The translations under genes were made by a program, and so were the position numbers. Source: a virus. Taken from it: a DNA stretch of 39,982 nt. The stretch spans positions 1-39,982 of IMG/VR virus record IMGVR_UViG_3300040801_001104. One strand, 5' to 3'. Position 1 is the stretch's first letter; every line of letters starts with the position of its first letter. Under the pieces are notes generated by a model. It saw only the letters and a list, made by a program, of their open reading frames with translations, did no database searches and was not told the origin of the DNA. Below, piece after piece: positions 11,311 through 36,187 of this stretch.

Positions 11311-11680
11311 CTGTTTGATCCTGTTGGCCGAGGAACTCGTCTAACTCCGTCTTAAGCGCTTCCAGCTTCGGAGTCGACAAGTTCTTGGCGTAGTCCACGT
11401 TATGCCCATCAAGATACGCCATTATTTCTTGGCGGTACTCTTTTTCAGCTTTCTTGGCTTCGCGCTGGGCTTGCTCCGCTTCGAGTCTGGCAGCGGCGGC
11501 GTCTTCCCCCACTTGAACGGCTTCTTCGGCAACACTTTGCCCTTTTTGGACCGCTTCTGCGTGTTCGTAGTAGCCATCTGGACATTCCTCCGCGCAGTGG
11601 ATGATGGTGTGCTTTTCGAGACCGGGTGTGTACACCATCTTCGGGTACTCCACCCACTTGTTCTGGGTCAGTTTCGCCAT
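11294..11680 (-). CDS. Small coiled-coil protein (128 aa)
   Basis: The start at 11680 (MAKLTQNKWVEYPKMVYTPG) follows AGAGGAC and is preferred to a longer reading from 11764, which has no good ribosome site and runs into the terminator zone. Residues about 45-95 are Ala/Glu/Lys/Gln-rich and probably coiled coil. The C-terminal part (NLSTPKLEALKTELDEFLG) has the look of a small SAP- or Ead-like helical domain. It lies between the coat gene and the gp4-like gene, where P22-like phages often have a small head-completion or decoration protein. The function is unknown. Confidence 0.65.
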   Translation of the reverse strand: MAKLTQNKWVEYPKMVYTPGLEKHTIIHCAEECPDGYYEHAEAVQKGQSVAEEAVQVGEDAAAARLEAEQAQREAKKAEKEYRQEIMAYLDGHNVDYAKNLSTPKLEALKTELDEFLGQQDQTDDGTD

Positions 11681-11748
11681 GTCGTTTGTCCTCTTGATGC
11701 GTCCGGGGACGCTGATGCTAGGGTTAATCATAGTGACACATCTTTCAC

Positions 11749-11778
11749 AAAAAAGACCCGCCAAGTCAATGGCGGGTC
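11749..11778 (-). terminator. Rho-independent terminator after coat protein gene
   Basis: Read leftward, an 8-bp perfect stem (GACCCGCC at 11755-11762 pairing with GGCGGGTC at 11771-11778) with an 8-base loop is followed by six T residues. It lies 27 bases past the coat protein stop. It would lower expression of the downstream tail genes relative to coat protein, a common way to obtain many more coats than tails. Confidence 0.88.
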
Positions 11779-11804
11779 TGTTTTCAGGTTTGCAGTGTCA
11801 GCAC

Positions 11805-13136
11805 TTAGGCGGTTCCGAAGAACTTCACGCCCATGCTGCGCTGGCGCGCCTGTGCCTGTACGAACATGTCGACACGGCAACGGTGTGCGCCGGTATCGGG
11901 ATCAGAGTAGAACCACAGCCTCGGCATCAGGGGTGCCGTGCCGTCGCGTTCTGCATCTGCCAGAGAGCGGCGGAAGCCTTGGCCCGTGTAGGGCATGATG
12001 AGTGGCGCCGAGTGGCAGACCACAGCTTCTTTCTTGAACATCAGACGCGGCGTGTAGGTCGTGGAGGCCGCTCCGAGGAACGTGACCGCCGCGCCCGAGG
12101 CCGGAGCTGCGTCAACCGTTGCGTGCGCGCGGTTCACACCGTTTGCACCAGATACCGCCGTACCGCCGCCGACGATGATCGCCGGGTAGATGCGGATGGT
12201 AGCTGCACCGGAAGCGAACGTGGCGCCCGTGATGACCGTGAACTGCTGTGTGAAGCCACGGTTCTGTTCGATCTCAGGGTCGAACGCTTCCACGCCCGCG
12301 ATTGTGAAGACCTCACCGGGATTGATGGTTTGGCCGTTCGTACCCGCGAGGGTGATCTCCTGCGTCATGTAGTAGCCGGCGTTGGAGCCAGCGTCTGCAG
12401 CCGCAGAGTAATCCACGTCTTGGTTCGCGCTCGCGACCGTGACGGTTGCGGTAGGTGTCCGCGAACCGGTCGTGATGCGGCCAAGCTGGTTGGACGCCTT
12501 GATCGGAATGTTGTCCAGAAGACCGCGAAAGCCGTTGCGCATCGCACGAGGAGCTTCCGAGGACAGCGCCGGTGCATCGTTGTAGATGTACTGGGCGAGG
12601 TTCTGGTGGTCAACGTGGGTCAGAACCGCGTTGATGTCCATGTCCGATTCCAGCGAGTTCAGGGCCAGACGGGTACGCGCTTGAGCGAACTCAAGAGGTA
12701 CGTCGATGTCGGAACCCCAATCACCCGTGGAAAGGTGGAAGGTTTTCACCGCAGTGTCGAAGATGTGGTAGTCGATCCGGCTTGCCAAACGCGAGATACC
12801 GTTCATCAGCGCTTTGTTCTTACGCGCGGACTGCAGGTCCGTAACCGATTCGATGTCGGACGCGCCCATCGAAAGTCCGAAGACCTTGTTCAGGGTGAAC
12901 GTCTGAGCGCCAAACACGGTGTCTTGCACGCCCGATGAGAGGTTCGCGACAGCGCCATCGGTTTCAGTGATGACGTAATCGGGACCAACCTGCTCGGATA
13001 CGACAAAGCCGTTGCGGTCGTTCATTTCAGTCGAGTGCATTTCCCACTCGATGAGATCAGAGGAAACCAGGTTGTTCCGCAAGGTCGACATAATCGCCTT
13101 GAGGATCAGCCGGGACTGAGGGACTGTAATCGTCAT
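11805..13136 (-). CDS. Major capsid (coat) protein, P22-like
   Basis: 443 residues, close to P22 coat (430). Residues about 230-310 contain the segment NPGEVFTIAGVEAFDPE followed by GFTQQFTVITGATF and AATIRIYPAIIVGGG, which resembles the inserted I-domain of P22 gp5-type coats. The C-terminal region includes LMFKKEAVVCHSAPLIMPY, as expected for the HK97-fold P-domain end of this family. The order portal-scaffold-coat-gp4-gp10 is the P22 order. The start follows AAAGG. A strong terminator stands just downstream. Confidence 0.85.
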   Translation of the reverse strand: MTITVPQSRLILKAIMSTLRNNLVSSDLIEWEMHSTEMNDRNGFVVSEQVGPDYVITETDGAVANLSSGVQDTVFGAQTFTLNKVFGLSMGASDIESVTDLQSARKNKALMNGISRLASRIDYHIFDTAVKTFHLSTGDWGSDIDVPLEFAQARTRLALNSLESDMDINAVLTHVDHQNLAQYIYNDAPALSSEAPRAMRNGFRGLLDNIPIKASNQLGRITTGSRTPTATVTVASANQDVDYSAAADAGSNAGYYMTQEITLAGTNGQTINPGEVFTIAGVEAFDPEIEQNRGFTQQFTVITGATFASGAATIRIYPAIIVGGGTAVSGANGVNRAHATVDAAPASGAAVTFLGAASTTYTPRLMFKKEAVVCHSAPLIMPYTGQGFRRSLADAERDGTAPLMPRLWFYSDPDTGAHRCRVDMFVQAQARQRSMGVKFFGTA

Positions 13137-27940: not shown

Positions 27941-28774
27941 GTGTTTCAATATCCAAAAACAAAACTGACTCCTGATTGGCTACTACAGTTCAATCAGATG
28001 GCCGAGAGTCAGACTTTCAACCGTGGCCAGTTCGGCATCGCGTTTGACGTCTGGCGCGACAAAGAACATCTGTTCTCCAGTTACACTAGGGAGCAGTCAG
28101 AATCTCTTGAAAGCTGGTGCGAGCGGAACTATCCAGACATAGAGCACCCCGACTATGCGAATTGCGCAATGGGTGCGGGGCCTGGCATAGGCGGGGTCGA
28201 GCGATTCCCTATCCCAACTTGGTTGGCAATAGATCACGGGTACAGTCTGAACGCATGCCAGCTGATCCTGCAAGCCGCCATCGCGACCGCAGCCTATCCG
28301 ACCCTAAAGGTCAAACCGCCGCAGCAGGTGCCGAACCCGAACGCCTTGAGGCAACGCATGCACAACTGGCATAGGGATTGGATGCGGTTGCTTATCGCTT
28401 CGCCCGAGGACGGTATCGTCTTGCGCGCTATCCTCGCACGCTCATCGTGGCGTCCGCCAGAGGCCCCTCAAGCTATCTGGGACGTGTCCCTTTACGAACG
28501 CCCCGCCCCACGACTACAAGCCGACCTGACGCCGTGGTGGGGCGAGATCGAGGCCCCGCAGTGCGACCTGACGGATGTAGAAGGCCGGAAGGCGACGATC
28601 AAAGCGGCCAAGAAAGCGGCCAAACTGAGCGGTATTCCAGGACGGGTCACGCACGAGGAACCGAACTATCTCGTTTACTCACTTGACCATCATCCCTATA
28701 ACTTGGGCATCAAACACAAGTCTGACATAGCCATTCCACCGGCCAGTCGGCGTACAGGATTCTTCAACCTATGA
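27941..28774 (+). CDS. Hypothetical protein, GTG start (277 aa)
   Basis: Starts at GTG behind TGAGGACTGAATA. Trp- and Pro-rich with a segment FPIPTWLAIDHGYSLNACQL, a helical middle (RQRMHNWHRDWMRLLIASPE) and a Lys/Ala-rich stretch (KATIKAAKKAAKLSG). No catalytic signature is recognised. It overlaps the sulfotransferase start by four bases (ATGA), so the two may act together or be co-regulated. Confidence 0.55.
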   Translation: MFQYPKTKLTPDWLLQFNQMAESQTFNRGQFGIAFDVWRDKEHLFSSYTREQSESLESWCERNYPDIEHPDYANCAMGAGPGIGGVERFPIPTWLAIDHGYSLNACQLILQAAIATAAYPTLKVKPPQQVPNPNALRQRMHNWHRDWMRLLIASPEDGIVLRAILARSSWRPPEAPQAIWDVSLYERPAPRLQADLTPWWGEIEAPQCDLTDVEGRKATIKAAKKAAKLSGIPGRVTHEEPNYLVYSLDHHPYNLGIKHKSDIAIPPASRRTGFFNL

Positions 28775-29352
28775 CCACCGTATATAAAGACGTACACCAC
28801 CAGTACATTAACATCCCGAAGTGTGCCGGCACGTCTGTGCTGACCGCGATGGGCCATTTGGAATCTTACACTATCGAGGATGTACGACGTATGGCCAAAA
28901 ACCGTCTGGAGACTGCCGAGTACGATCCGAAAGGCCCGCCAGCCTTCACCATCATCCGACACCCGTGGAGACGATTCGTATCGACGTGGAAGAACAAGGT
29001 GCGTTACCCGCACCGACCGGACACAATGCTACTTAAGATGGGTGTGCCAAAAGGCACAGAACTGGACAAATTCTGCCAGTGGTTCCTGCACCTGTCGCCG
29101 GAAGAGCGGAACGGCGAAGCTCACTTGAGACCGCAACACATGTATCTGCCGGAGAATCTGACGGGGATTGACGTCATAATTCAAGAAGACCTGCCGCTAG
29201 GTTGGTATCGTGGCGGGTATCATGCACTGTACGGCAAGCTGCCTCGGCGGAACTCGACGCGCGGCATGGCAGAAACCAACAGCCCATACCGCAGACAAGT
29301 AGAAGACCTCTATCAGAAGGATATGAAACTATGGTTGGATTCGTTCAAATAA
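28771..29352 (+). CDS. Sulfotransferase-like protein (193 aa)
   Basis: Both PAPS-binding elements are visible: IPKCAGTSV at residues 15-23 (5'-phosphosulfate loop with Lys17) and IIRHPWRRFVSTW at 61-73 (3'-phosphate site with Arg63 and Ser71). The family (sulfotransferase family 2 type) moves sulfate from PAPS to an OH or NH group on carbohydrates, lipids or other molecules. At 193 residues it is shorter than many members, but the core is intact. In a phage it could modify host surface glycans, tail or capsid sugars, or a small molecule. Starts in an ATGA overlap with the preceding unknown gene. Confidence 0.75.
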   Translation: MTTVYKDVHHQYINIPKCAGTSVLTAMGHLESYTIEDVRRMAKNRLETAEYDPKGPPAFTIIRHPWRRFVSTWKNKVRYPHRPDTMLLKMGVPKGTELDKFCQWFLHLSPEERNGEAHLRPQHMYLPENLTGIDVIIQEDLPLGWYRGGYHALYGKLPRRNSTRGMAETNSPYRRQVEDLYQKDMKLWLDSFK

Positions 29353-32213: not shown

Positions 32214-32416
32214 GACAGACAAACCCGTGGAGCATGTTCCACACCGTATGCCTGTTCGCGATCGCGATCACCGTGTACGACGTCTCTGGCATCGGCGAAC
32301 CTCGCAATCGTGCGCCGCTCCCGCAGATTTACAATGCGGCGCCTTCGCCAATCGAACGGTTTGTGCAGTCACAGGCCACAATTCTGAAAACTTTTAAAGA
32401 GGTGACTCCAAAATGA
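32210..32416 (+). CDS. Small membrane-anchored protein (68 aa)
   Basis: Starts in an ATGA overlap. Residues about 8-28 (SMFHTVCLFAIAITVYDVSG) form one hydrophobic helix, and the rest is polar and basic. Ends in an ATGA overlap with the next gene. Unknown function. Confidence 0.5.
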   Translation: MRQTNPWSMFHTVCLFAIAITVYDVSGIGEPRNRAPLPQIYNAAPSPIERFVQSQATILKTFKEVTPK

Positions 32417-33246
32417 ACGATATTGCAAACGTAGGCCCCAACGCTGTCGGCGCGGCCATGTCTCAGCAAGAGTTGAACGACTACTACCGCAAGATGGCCG
32501 AGGCCTATGCCTCGACCGAGCAGCGAGCCAACTCGACCGTATCCGTCAAAAACGGCGTCATGTCGGTCGGCGATCAACCTATTCCTGGTAACCAGTTCGC
32601 TGCCGTTATCCTTGATGCTGTGCGGTTGAACACGTTCTACCGGACGAACTACAACGCGAGCAGCAATGAGCCGCCGACCTGTTACGCCATCGGACGTACG
32701 GACGACGAGATGCGTCCCCACCCCGACATGGCGCGCGACCCGAACCATTTCAAACCGCAGTCTGACGCGTGTCAGGGCTGCCCGATGAACGAGTTTGGCT
32801 CCAACCCGCAGACGGGCAAAGGCAAGGCGTGCGGCAACCGTCGTCGTCTTATCATGCTGCTCGCCGGCACGTACCAGCAGGACGTGAACGGGATGCTGCA
32901 CCTACAGCCGTACACCACTGCGGACCACTACCAATCGACTCCGTTCCTTCAGATGACGCTGGCACCGACCTCGCTGAAGGCGTGGGGTGAGTTCGTCCGG
33001 TCGTCGGCTGCGCAGTATCAGCGTCCGTTCTTCGGTCTGGTGACGCGGGTGTACCTGTACGCACACCCGTCACACGGTAAGGAAGCGATCGGGTTCGAGC
33101 CTCTGGCCCAGATACCAGACGACTGGGCGCACGCGGTCATCCCGCGACAGCAGGAAGCCATGAAGGACATCTTCAAAGGTTACGAGCCTCCGCAGAACCA
33201 GCATCCACAGGGCGGGTTCCATCAAGTGCAGAACCAGCAGAGATGA
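32413..33246 (+). CDS. Putative ssDNA-associated / zinc-binding replication protein (277 aa)
   Basis: A Cys cluster near residues 115-140 (ACQGCPMNEFGSNPQTGKGK, then ACGNRRRL) resembles a zinc-binding loop found in phage proteins encoded beside primases, which are sometimes described as single-strand-binding-like or recombination proteins. The N- and C-terminal parts are beta-rich, with a Gln/Pro/His-rich tail (about 250-277). Position between helicase-primase and polymerase supports a replication role. The exact function is not proven. The ribosome site is AGAGGTGACTCC. Confidence 0.5.
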   Translation: MNDIANVGPNAVGAAMSQQELNDYYRKMAEAYASTEQRANSTVSVKNGVMSVGDQPIPGNQFAAVILDAVRLNTFYRTNYNASSNEPPTCYAIGRTDDEMRPHPDMARDPNHFKPQSDACQGCPMNEFGSNPQTGKGKACGNRRRLIMLLAGTYQQDVNGMLHLQPYTTADHYQSTPFLQMTLAPTSLKAWGEFVRSSAAQYQRPFFGLVTRVYLYAHPSHGKEAIGFEPLAQIPDDWAHAVIPRQQEAMKDIFKGYEPPQNQHPQGGFHQVQNQQR

Positions 33247-34295
33247 GCGCCTATTACAACGAGCATGACCCGCAAGCTGCAGCATGGCTTCGCGAATTGA
33301 TTTCGCGCGGCCTACTGCCAGCCGGGGATGTAGATGAAAGGGACATTCAGGATGTCGACGCGAGAGACCTCGAACCTTACACGCAGTGCCATTTTTTTGC
33401 TGGCATTGGAGGATGGCCGGCGGCGCTCAAATGGCTCGCTGCCTGGCCCGACGACGTTCCCGTCTGGACCGGAAGCTGCCCCTGCCAACCCTTCTCGGGA
33501 GCAGGTAAAGGCCGAGGCTTTCAGGACGAGCGGCACTTGTGGCCCTATCTCTTCCGCCTCATACGTCAGTCACGCCCTCCAGTCTTCTTTGGAGAGCAGG
33601 TTGCCCAGCGCCTTGACTGGCTCGACCTTGTATCGTGTGACTTGGAAGCATCGGACTACGCCGTTGGGTCGGCTGATCTGTGCGCTGCGAGCGTCGGCGC
33701 ACCGCACATCCGGCAACGGCTCTTTTTCGGGGCCGTCGATCTTCGACCTATCCCCGATGGTTGGCTGGGCGAGTCCTACCGCTCATCAGCAGAAGATTCC
33801 GTACAAGCAAGGCGGGAAGTCGACGGAAGCGGAAGCCGTACATTTGATGGGTTGGCCGACTCCTACGACGCGCGACCACAAGGACGGGAAGTGCGAGGGA
33901 ACGGTGGAAGTGAACGCTCTGTTGGGCAGAGCGGTCTGGCTATCAGGCTGGCCCACCCCCACGGCTCAGTCGCCGAACTCATTGAGAGGGAAGGGGCAAG
34001 ACCCGCAAAAGCGAAAGGAGTCGGGCCACACAGTGAACTTAACCGATGCGGTAAACTGGCTTCGGGACTTGTCGGGACCGGCCCGATTGACGCCGCATGG
34101 TCAGATGCTGACTGGCTCTTTGGCAAAGATGGAAAGTGGAGGCCAGTTGAATCCGGCACATTCCCGTTGGTTGATGGGGTACCCGAAAGAGTGGGACGAT
34201 TGCGGGGTTACGGCAATGCAATCGTACCGCAAGTCGCGGCGACATTCATTGAAGCGTTCGCCGAAGCCTTCGACCACGCCTTGAGGACACAATGA
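33243..34295 (+). CDS. C5-cytosine DNA methyltransferase, Dcm-like (350 aa)
   Basis: Motifs in order: FFAGIGG (51-57, SAM binding), GSCPCQPFSGAGKG (77-90, catalytic Cys81), GEQVA (117-121, in place of the usual ENV), IRQRLFF (156-162) and YGNAIVPQVA (323-332, motif X). The region between about 165 and 290 is the target-recognition part and is less orderly. The end DGKWRPVESGTFPL...GVPERVGRLRGYGNAI matches the common prophage Dcm C-terminus. Modification may protect phage DNA from host restriction. An unusual second frame is open through almost the whole gene (see separate entry). Confidence 0.85.
   Translation: MSAYYNEHDPQAAAWLRELISRGLLPAGDVDERDIQDVDARDLEPYTQCHFFAGIGGWPAALKWLAAWPDDVPVWTGSCPCQPFSGAGKGRGFQDERHLWPYLFRLIRQSRPPVFFGEQVAQRLDWLDLVSCDLEASDYAVGSADLCAASVGAPHIRQRLFFGAVDLRPIPDGWLGESYRSSAEDSVQARREVDGSGSRTFDGLADSYDARPQGREVRGNGGSERSVGQSGLAIRLAHPHGSVAELIEREGARPAKAKGVGPHSELNRCGKLASGLVGTGPIDAAWSDADWLFGKDGKWRPVESGTFPLVDGVPERVGRLRGYGNAIVPQVAATFIEAFAEAFDHALRTQ
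33334..34284 (+). other. Second open frame inside the cytosine methyltransferase gene (316 codons)
   Basis: Shifted +1 relative to the methyltransferase, open for 951 bases. Its translation has segments I recall from a separate, common phage protein type: LTGSTLYRVTWKHRTTPLGR and ALRASAHRTSG, then GWPTPTTRDHKDG, SGWPTPTAQS, SGPARLTPHGQMLTGS and GGQLNPAHSRWLMGYPKEWDDCG. The matching DNA in the main frame also reads as recognisable methyltransferase sequence. I see no strong ribosome site for an ATG at 33334, so independent translation is uncertain. It may be an overprinted gene, a frameshift product or a family-wide shadow frame. Confidence 0.45.
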
Positions 34296-36187
34296 TTCCA
34301 CTTTGGACACTAGACTTCGAAACCATGCCGATCGGGCCGCGCCCAGAGCATTATCCGCCGAAGCCGGTCGGGCTGGCTTGGCGTGACGCCTACGGGGAAC
34401 GCGGCTACGAGACGGACTGGGAGAAGATGCGCGAGATTCTTTACTTTGCGCAGGACTGTCAGAAACGCGGCTGCCCTGTCACTTTCCACAACGGTAAGTT
34501 CGACATGCACGTTGCCGCGAAGCACTTCGGGATTCGATTCCAAGACGACGAGTTCCACGACACGATGCTGATGGCGTTCCTGATGGACCCATACGGTCGC
34601 TCTGGGCTCAAGACGTTGAGCGAGAAGTGGCTTGGCTGGGCGGAGGAAGAGAAGGATGCGTGCGTTGAGTGGATACTCGCCAACAAAGACCGTCTGCCAA
34701 CTATACCTTGGATCGTCGATAAGAACGACAAGCCACGTAAACCCTCGAAGAACATCGCTGGAGCGTGGCTCGCATGGGTGCCGGTCGAGATACTGGGACC
34801 ATACGCCATTGGCGACGTAGAGCGCACGTGGGCGCTGGCGCAGACATGGCTGCCGCTCCTCGAACGCACGGGGATGATGGAAGCCTACGACGTCGAGCGC
34901 GCATGCCTACCGATTTTCATGGACAACGAAGAGAAGGGGATGCGCTGCGACCACGGTCAGCTGGGTCAAGACATTGAGATGTACCAGCGCGCGTTCGCGT
35001 ACGCCGAAGAGTGGCTCCGGTGGCGTCTCAACGCGCCTGGCCTGAACCTTGATTCCGACGACGACGTGGCTTCGCTCCTGAAGTCGAACCAGATCGTTAC
35101 CCAGTTCGCCAAAACGAAAACAGGTAAGGACTCGGTCAGCAAAAAGACGCTGCATCCCGAACAGTTCAGTGACCAGCAGGTTGCGCAAGTGCTCGGGTAC
35201 CGTAACAGGCTCAAGACGTGCCTGACGATGTTCATGGAGCCTTGGTATGAACAAGCGACTGCACGACCGGACGGACGGATTTCGACGGACTGGAACCAGG
35301 TACAAGGCGACGGTGGCGGAACCAAGACCGGACGCCCCTCGACTCGGAACCCCAACTTCCTTAACATCAGCAAGCAATTCGAAGGTCTTCCCGATGGCTA
35401 TGAACATCCGTCTTTTCTGGGACTCCCCAATTTACCGCTGGTTCGAAAGTATATTCTCCCCAACGAAGGTGAAGTCATCCTCAAGCGAGACTTCTCAGGA
35501 CAGGAGCTTCACATCTTCGGAGAGTTCGAGTGCGGCGAGCTGCGCGAGCAGTTCCGAAAAGACCCAAACCTCGATGTGCATAACTTTGTCGGGGGTAAGA
35601 TCACCGAACTTACAGGTAACGATTTCCCTAGAGGAAAAGTCAAAATCCTGAACTTCCAGTCGATCTACGGCGGAGGAGTGCCAGCGTGTGCAAACGAGAT
35701 GAGGGTCAGCCATGAAGAAGCAAGAGAGTTCAAAGCGTTCCACGACAAGGCGCTTCCTGGACGTGCCATCCTTGCCAACACGCTTTCATCCATTGTCCGC
35801 CGAGGACAAAGCATCCGTACATACGGCGGTCGTCTGTATCCTCGCCCACCTTTCATCAAGCGGGACGGCGGGAACCTTTCCCCTGCGGACTACCGTCTCA
35901 TCAACTACCTCGTCCAAGGGTCAGCTGCCGACGTCACGAAGCGGGCGATGATAAACCTCGTCAGCGACCCCGCCTACAACAGCTTTTTCATGCTGCAAGT
36001 CTACGACGAGATGAACATCAGCGCGCCGATCGCGGAGGCCTACGAGCAGATGCAGGTTCTCAAGCGCGCGATGGAGAGTGTGCCGCTCAGCACCGGACTT
36101 CCAACAGACGGCGAGTACGGGTTCACGTGGGGCGACATGAAGGAACTGGAAAACGAAGAGGATCTGAAACATGTCATTCCTTTCTGA
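34292..36187 (+). CDS. Family A DNA polymerase with 3'-5' exonuclease (631 aa)
   Basis: Exonuclease motifs: LDFET (7-11), VTFHNGKFDMHVAA (about 65-80) and YAIGDVERTW (about 170-180). Polymerase motif A DFSGQELHIFGEF (near 400), motif B KVKILNFQSIYGG (near 450) and motif C LQVYDEMNIS (near 570), where the usual His of 'HDE' is Tyr. The position equal to E. coli Phe762 is Phe. The size and lack of a 5' nuclease fit T7-like phage replicative enzymes. It starts behind TTGAGGACACA and overlaps the methyltransferase stop by four bases. Confidence 0.88.
   Translation: MIPLWTLDFETMPIGPRPEHYPPKPVGLAWRDAYGERGYETDWEKMREILYFAQDCQKRGCPVTFHNGKFDMHVAAKHFGIRFQDDEFHDTMLMAFLMDPYGRSGLKTLSEKWLGWAEEEKDACVEWILANKDRLPTIPWIVDKNDKPRKPSKNIAGAWLAWVPVEILGPYAIGDVERTWALAQTWLPLLERTGMMEAYDVERACLPIFMDNEEKGMRCDHGQLGQDIEMYQRAFAYAEEWLRWRLNAPGLNLDSDDDVASLLKSNQIVTQFAKTKTGKDSVSKKTLHPEQFSDQQVAQVLGYRNRLKTCLTMFMEPWYEQATARPDGRISTDWNQVQGDGGGTKTGRPSTRNPNFLNISKQFEGLPDGYEHPSFLGLPNLPLVRKYILPNEGEVILKRDFSGQELHIFGEFECGELREQFRKDPNLDVHNFVGGKITELTGNDFPRGKVKILNFQSIYGGGVPACANEMRVSHEEAREFKAFHDKALPGRAILANTLSSIVRRGQSIRTYGGRLYPRPPFIKRDGGNLSPADYRLINYLVQGSAADVTKRAMINLVSDPAYNSFFMLQVYDEMNISAPIAEAYEQMQVLKRAMESVPLSTGLPTDGEYGFTWGDMKELENEEDLKHVIPF

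Follow-up and report, generated by a model that had tools for sequence, protein, structure and literature searches.

A phage locus that probably encodes both subunits of a DNA cytosine-5 methyltransferase in overlapping reading frames

Multispecific DNA cytosine-5 (C5) methyltransferases of phages (SPbeta, phi3T and rho11s types) are monomeric enzymes read from one frame, in which serial short recognition modules are placed between motifs VIII and IX. C5 methyltransferases that consist of two polypeptides are also known, and for one of them, M.EcoHK31I, the coding sequence of the small polypeptide reportedly lies within that of the large one, in a different frame. The large polypeptide of M.EcoHK31I carries motifs I–VIII and X together with a predicted recognition domain, and the small one carries motif IX (PMC3404938); the 1995 description of this enzyme, with two polypeptides and motif IX on the small one, is cited there. 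In M.AquI, the catalytic core and the recognition/motif IX part are likewise found on separate chains (PMC3404938). An earlier note on the DNA analyzed here had stated that no established description of such a relationship was known, a claim that the M.EcoHK31I precedent shows to be wrong.

The window, i.e., the whole stretch of DNA that was analyzed, comprises 39,982 bases of a virus record, and the locus under study occupies positions 33243–34295 on the plus strand, which is also the strand of all features of the locus described below. We assign a probability of about 0.87 to the reading that the two overlapping frames of this locus code for the two subunits of a phage DNA C5 methyltransferase, alpha and beta, which have independent starts and are parts of one enzyme. 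Frame A (33243–34295, 350 aa) is assigned to the alpha subunit, and frame B, at +1 relative to frame A, to the beta subunit; frame B extends over 951 bases, from an ATG at 33334 to a TGA ending at 34284 (316 aa), and an alternative start at ATG 33352 would give a protein of 310 aa. The open +1 frame had been pointed out in the earlier note, and every segment quoted there from its translation is present at 33334–34284.

Both ends of the alpha gene overlap a neighboring frame by the tetranucleotide ATGA: at 33243–33246 the alpha start overlaps the stop of an upstream open reading frame (32413–33246) that has no Pfam match, and at 34292–34295 the alpha stop overlaps the start of a gene for a family A DNA polymerase (34292–36187). 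Elsewhere in the window, positions 28771–29352 encode a sulfotransferase-family protein (PF03567, 4e-10), and the same phage genome has a P22-like portal and coat. A further open frame of 445 aa at 11601–12938 (plus strand) runs opposite the gene for the P22-like coat protein (11805–13136, minus strand), and has no match in Pfam or PHROG.

Motif content of the two overlapping frames

Frame A, which carries PCQPFS and YGNAIVPQVA, matches the Pfam family DNA_methylase (2.7e-13) and phrog_363 (3.6e-76), in agreement with the earlier identification of the main frame as a C5 methyltransferase with PCQPFS and motif X; phrog_363 was matched by all 56 alphas scanned. The alpha profile matches M.HhaI over profile positions 70–173 (4.7e-17), i.e., over motifs I–VIII, and the predicted alpha structure matches M.HhaI in Foldseek (2e-9). 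The frame A alignment places the motif I region HFFAGIGGW at 33390–33416, motif IV (PCQPFS with the catalytic cysteine; PCQP and S invariant) at 33480–33497, motif VI at 33591–33602, where GEQV with invariant GEQ replaces ENV, motif VIII (RQR) at 33711–33719, and motif X (RGYGNAIVPQVAAT) at 34203–34244. Alpha has the features that define a C5 methyltransferase, namely motifs I, IV (PCQ), VI and VIII and an AdoMet-dependent fold, with motif VI being GEQ and not ENV. Motif IX was looked for in frame A and is absent there; it is found in frame B instead. In the AlphaFold model of alpha, confidence is high for most of the motif I–VIII core and for the C-terminal helix that holds motif X (residues 329–349), and residues 196–289 have pLDDT values below 50.

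When the two translations were searched separately against databases, as the earlier note had proposed, frame B matched phrog_1008 (4e-31) and phrog_31772 (2e-31), both named DNA methyltransferase and matched by 92 and 91, respectively, of the 92 betas scanned, and had no credible match in Pfam or NCBIfam. Motif IX in frame B carries 'GQLNPAHSRWLMGYP'; the sequence GGQLNPAHSRWLMGYPKEW at 34138–34194, directly 5' of alpha motif X in the other frame, matches RLAPAFSEWMMGWPAGW in the one-chain methyltransferase of phage Rita, and the end of beta, GQLNPAHSRWLMGYPKEW, aligns with motif IX of the same enzyme. Profile–profile comparison aligns beta with the region of single-chain actinophage enzymes that spans recognition and motif IX (94.8%, E 5e-8); it also aligns beta with proteins read from the second frame in Paenibacillus (Firmicutes) and in gut phages, which are covered over their entire length (E 1e-25). 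Judged by these sequence relationships, beta supplies the parts that alpha is without, i.e., motif IX and the recognition region, and is not an unrelated protein; the earlier suggestion that the +1 frame represents a different phage protein type is not supported. Beta modeled alone with AlphaFold gave a poor model (pTM 0.30), a structure search with that model returned no structural match, and the beta profile produced only chance hits to PDB sequences. For 'Mte8-like', the name given to frame B in K1 phages, no description was found.

The distribution of motifs over the frames varies among relatives. In Rita and its relatives all motifs are in one frame, and in some actinophages and the locus L346 the second frame holds the recognition region and motifs IX and X, with alpha stopping after motif VIII. 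By their motif assignments, single-chain and M.AquI-like relatives show that motifs IX and X move between frames, and the occurrence of overlapping as well as single-frame layouts points to one superfamily comprising two kinds of alpha/beta overlap and single-chain forms. The M.AquI-like layout, with the recognition region, IX and X in the +1 frame, was seen in L346 and in the actinophage-like contigs L285, L288 and L297–L307, and the overlap with alpha is about 60 codons in the contigs and about 127 in L346. An intermediate was noted in Gordonia phage CheeseTouch (L261, 2315–3349), which has WPTP-like modules in the +1 frame and IX and X in the alpha frame. A very divergent alpha/beta pair (L370) and a second copy occur in the same Enterobacteriaceae genome (G170); the L370 alpha has motifs I–VIII and X, and its beta differs in the N-terminal part (MSWLFSQALAEEYSAATCSDGTQYAQLN...) and ends in GQLNPDWVEWFMGWPIGW. 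Mere pieces of alpha and beta are left in a plasmid of Klebsiella aerogenes (L347, LR134256.1), which may be related to the source of M.EaeI; they form a decayed copy among phage recombination genes in a phage-like region.

Co-occurrence, constraint and the start of beta

Relatives were gathered from viral contigs and from phage and bacterial genomes by queries with one of the two frames or with an alignment of one of them, which gave 255 loci. Both frames are present in all 255, with B at +1 of A and an overlap of more than 300 nt, and the 80 loci picked by frame A alone all carry frame B at the same offset; a match was found in 22 of 295 sampled Enterobacteriaceae genomes, with both frames in every locus examined. 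No locus with one frame and without the other was found among the 255 loci and the Enterobacteriaceae loci examined. In a non-redundant set of 193 loci (75% frame A identity), the median open length of frame B is 316 codons, and B opens a median of 73 nt past the start of A and ends a median of 26 nt ahead of the stop of A; in five loci frame B stops late in the gene and simply ends earlier, with motif IX intact. The proposal that both frames are widespread alternate-frame siblings is thus upheld by their co-occurrence and, as follows, by selection on both.

Shuffling the window locus with the frame A protein and its codon usage held constant put a mean of 6.4 stops into frame B, which was open in none of 400 trials. 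Across the related loci, A-preserving synonymous shuffles predicted 730 stops in B and none was seen, a count that is partly circular in that it used profile-defined B segments taken from the open frame; the count was therefore redone over a region with boundaries set by frame A (residues 117–323), in which all 46 A-selected loci among the 193 have frame B open and none of the 46 has frame C open. The B profile score is 300 bits for the real loci vs. 97 bits after A-preserving shuffles, and 181 of 181 loci beat their own shuffles. The loci share kinship, so that none of these counts represents independent events, and the effects are large. Third-position identity in frame A is 0.35–0.55 over residues 1–84 and about 0.65 over residues 109–156, reaches 0.925 over residues 301–312 (the motif IX region of B), where it exceeds the first-position value of 0.816, and drops to 0.46 at the end of B. 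The third position of A is the second position of B, and the raised wobble conservation is what a second coding frame predicts. The part of frame B that precedes roughly residue 85 of frame A stays open, yet its third-position conservation is not clearly raised. Frame B is a real gene and not a product of chance.

Reciprocal shuffles, in which either frame was held fixed, resolve the constraint along the overlap. Over motifs V–VIII, frame A scores 135.5 vs. 36.5 bits with B fixed, and frame B 113.8 vs. 51.8 bits with A fixed; over the IX/X segment the values are 91.2 vs. 48.8 bits for A and 89.4 vs. 40.2 bits for B. In the middle of the overlap (33735–34094, frame A residues 165–284), B scores 74.9 vs. 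5.8 bits and A just 21.6 vs. 15.8 bits, with 0 stops in A vs. 408 expected. The V–VIII and IX/X segments are thus constrained in both frames, and in the middle, where the constraint falls mainly on B, the roles swap: the recognition-like frame B is the informative frame and frame A a near-unconstrained but open spacer, which the AlphaFold model suggests is probably disordered in alpha.

The beginning of frame B is marked by a shift in stop codon frequency. Ahead of frame A residue 28, frame B stops are more frequent than expected (249 vs. 187), and directly past residue 42 they are nearly absent (3 vs. 87 expected). Of the 193 loci, 186 have a frame B ATG in the stretch from residue 27 to residue 44 of frame A, vs. 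143 expected. The most frequent of these ATGs is at frame A residue 37, where it is created by the use of GAT for Asp in 135 of 175 cases (77%, vs. 39% overall), and a Shine-Dalgarno-like sequence precedes 85 of 120 of these ATGs. At the alignment position of the window's ATG 33352, 85 of 193 relatives have an ATG with a Shine-Dalgarno-like sequence and 35 more have the ATG alone; in the window, AAAGGG (33337–33342) precedes this ATG, and 33337–33354 is the likely initiation site. In L001, N15 and L119, frame B stops occur further down, and an ATG with a ribosome-binding-like sequence is found near residues 94–95. These features fit internal initiation of beta at ATG 33352 or 33334.

Recognition modules and competing explanations

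Between a hairpin and motif IX, betas usually carry 1–5 modules with a GWPTPTA-like start and a spacing of about 36 aa. In the window, module 1 (GWPTPTTRDHKDGKCEGTVEVNALLGRAVWLS, 33850–33945) is 60–73% identical to modules at other array positions in L012, L022, L053 and L187, and module 2 (from GWPTPTAQSPNSLRG... to PARLTP, 33946–34095) is 60–63% identical to the final modules of L177 and L089; a degenerate module 0 (GWASPTAHQQ..., 33763–33849) was spotted by eye in the frame B translation and alignment. A module is shared at 80% identity or more by 215 locus pairs, in 91 of which it has a different ordinal position, and the alpha cores of some module-sharing pairs are just 54–65% identical. 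In the shared modules checked, the third codon position of B is the most divergent, which is the pattern of a normal gene translated in frame B, and in single-chain relatives the modules sit between motifs VIII and IX. Beta thus appears, from these comparisons, to carry the recognition domain as 1–5 swappable modules of about 36 aa, an organization that looks new, and seems to be the half that picks the DNA sites for marking. Because of the analogy with multispecific phage methyltransferases, we infer that each module may set a DNA target. For the family as a whole, we consider it rather probable that in many phage C5 methyltransferases the specificity part, i.e., an exchangeable module array plus motif IX, is a separate +1-frame subunit, that the array recombines between phages with the other frame serving as open spacer, and that databases hold the two frames as unrelated families or miss one of them.

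That frame B is a shadow frame, open merely as a consequence of a conserved GC-rich methyltransferase frame, was among the options considered earlier. It would accord with the frequent lack of annotation and of Pfam or NCBIfam matches for frame B, and the 97 bits retained in shuffled frames mean that part of the B resemblance does stem from frame A. Such an origin is nevertheless refuted by the missing stops, the excess of 300 over 97 bits, the openness of B in loci picked by frame A alone, and the wobble sites of the motif IX region that are better conserved than first positions; moreover, in the middle of the overlap B predicts A and not the reverse, so that it is A that acts as the shadow, and a beta-like recognition and motif IX region stands in frame in single-chain enzymes. 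Programmed ribosomal frameshifting, by which B would extend the N-terminal part of A to give two isoforms, is favored by frames that lie one base apart and overlap over about 950 bases, and a shift at frame A residues 42–84, where B is open and not visibly conserved, would be tolerable. Frameshifting is very unlikely, however, because frame B starts at an ATG cluster with enriched in-frame stops upstream; the codon bias that creates the commonest ATG and the displaced ATGs of L001, N15 and L119 also argue against it, and a shifted product would be without motifs V–VIII and X.

The absence of a recognizable fold in beta alone would suit a separate overprinted protein, e.g., a regulator or anti-restriction factor, that is no part of the enzyme. 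Against this highly improbable reading stand the presence in beta of the motif IX that alpha is missing, the profile–profile match to the recognition and motif IX region of single-chain enzymes, the lack of any single-frame locus among the 255 loci and the Enterobacteriaceae loci examined, and the placement of motif X, too, in the second frame in L346 and the L285 group, which shows that enzyme parts move between frames. It is also conceivable, if somewhat doubtful, that beta is a subunit of which the WPTP modules are structural repeats, with specificity residing elsewhere, e.g., in alpha, as the recognition domain was predicted in the large subunit of M.EcoHK31I (PMC3404938); no solved structure resembling the modules was found. 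The matching alpha region is, however, predicted to be disordered and adds next to nothing past frame B, and the modules, which in single-chain relatives are placed between VIII and IX, differ among themselves in number, sequence and order, as do those of multispecific phage enzymes.

In the preferred reading of a two-subunit methyltransferase, frame A would yield alpha with the AdoMet-binding and catalytic core (I–VIII) and the C-terminal motif X helix, and frame B would yield beta with a helix and hairpin, at least one target-recognition module and motif IX. Ribosomes would start alpha at 33243 and, separately, beta at the internal ATG (33352 or 33334), and we infer that the two chains are expressed, that they assemble as a heterodimer, and that the resulting enzyme methylates phage DNA, most simply as a shield against host restriction. 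Over the central part of the overlap, alpha would need just to stay open, keeping motif X attached. Long same-strand overlaps with demonstrable constraint on both frames are uncommon outside small viruses, and the second frame here supplies what the enzyme encoded by the first frame is missing and is not an unrelated newcomer. Since the partner frame of the module array need just stay open, the family offers a natural experiment on constraint sharing in overlapping genes. If the reading is correct, a phage methylase annotated from one frame is without its recognition part, and predictions of its methylation specificity and of the restriction systems resisted would be misled; codon optimization or recoding that attends to alpha alone would ruin beta unnoticed, and an inactive enzyme would be expected.

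Comparison with annotations and described systems

Annotation of the locus is inconsistent. Both frames are annotated in K1ind2 and PhiXhv-28, frame A alone in N15 and BcepC6B, and the beta frame alone in the Klebsiella phage VLCpiM12a (L012), in PMG1 and in the Stenotrophomonas phage SOVA965 (L260). In the GenBank records of SOVA965 and VLCpiM12a, the beta frame is labeled the methyltransferase and the catalytic alpha frame is unannotated. In the Pseudomonas phage PMG1 (L014), the alpha N-terminal part is in another frame at 1283–1449, an apparent indel or sequencing error, and the annotated beta is intact. PHROG holds phrog_363 and phrog_1008/phrog_31772 as separate 'DNA methyltransferase' families, the descriptions of which give no hint of shared DNA. 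No paper on the wider alpha/beta family was found in a literature search of partial coverage.

Two-frame methylase genes of another kind are known from mycobacteriophage ShiLan, in which a hidden HNH endonuclease is encoded in an alternate frame (PMC11855218). Like beta it is a second protein within a methylase gene; the ShiLan endonuclease, however, belongs to a mobile homing insertion that has no relation to the methylase, whereas beta appears to be an enzyme part. The multispecific phage enzymes share with beta the use of serial modules, a likeness of arrangement and not demonstrated homology, but consist of one chain read from one frame, where two overlapping frames are used here. Single-chain phage C5 methyltransferases such as gp76 of Mycobacterium phage Rita, and M.HhaI-type enzymes, have the same motif set as alpha and beta combined, all in one frame and one polypeptide, and the Rita enzyme has WPTP-like modules and a motif IX homologous to beta.

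The division of the catalytic core and the recognition/motif IX part over two chains is shared with M.AquI, in which, however, the split lies inside the variable region and motif X is on the small subunit, whereas alpha of the window locus keeps motif X; the L285 group and L346 have the M.AquI motif layout, yet with overlapping frames. The closest likeness in motif layout, I–VIII and X on the large and IX on the small chain, is by published description to M.EcoHK31I and its isoschizomer M.EaeI (YGGCCR). The alternative-frame position reported for the small subunit of M.EcoHK31I corresponds to the nesting seen here, with beta at +1 inside alpha. The window locus differs in being an orphan gene of a phage, located in a cluster of replication genes, and its putative recognition domain is placed by sequence evidence in beta as a module array, where that of M.EcoHK31I was predicted in the large subunit. 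The arrangement is thus known in kind from M.EcoHK31I, and its widespread, inconsistently annotated occurrence looks new.
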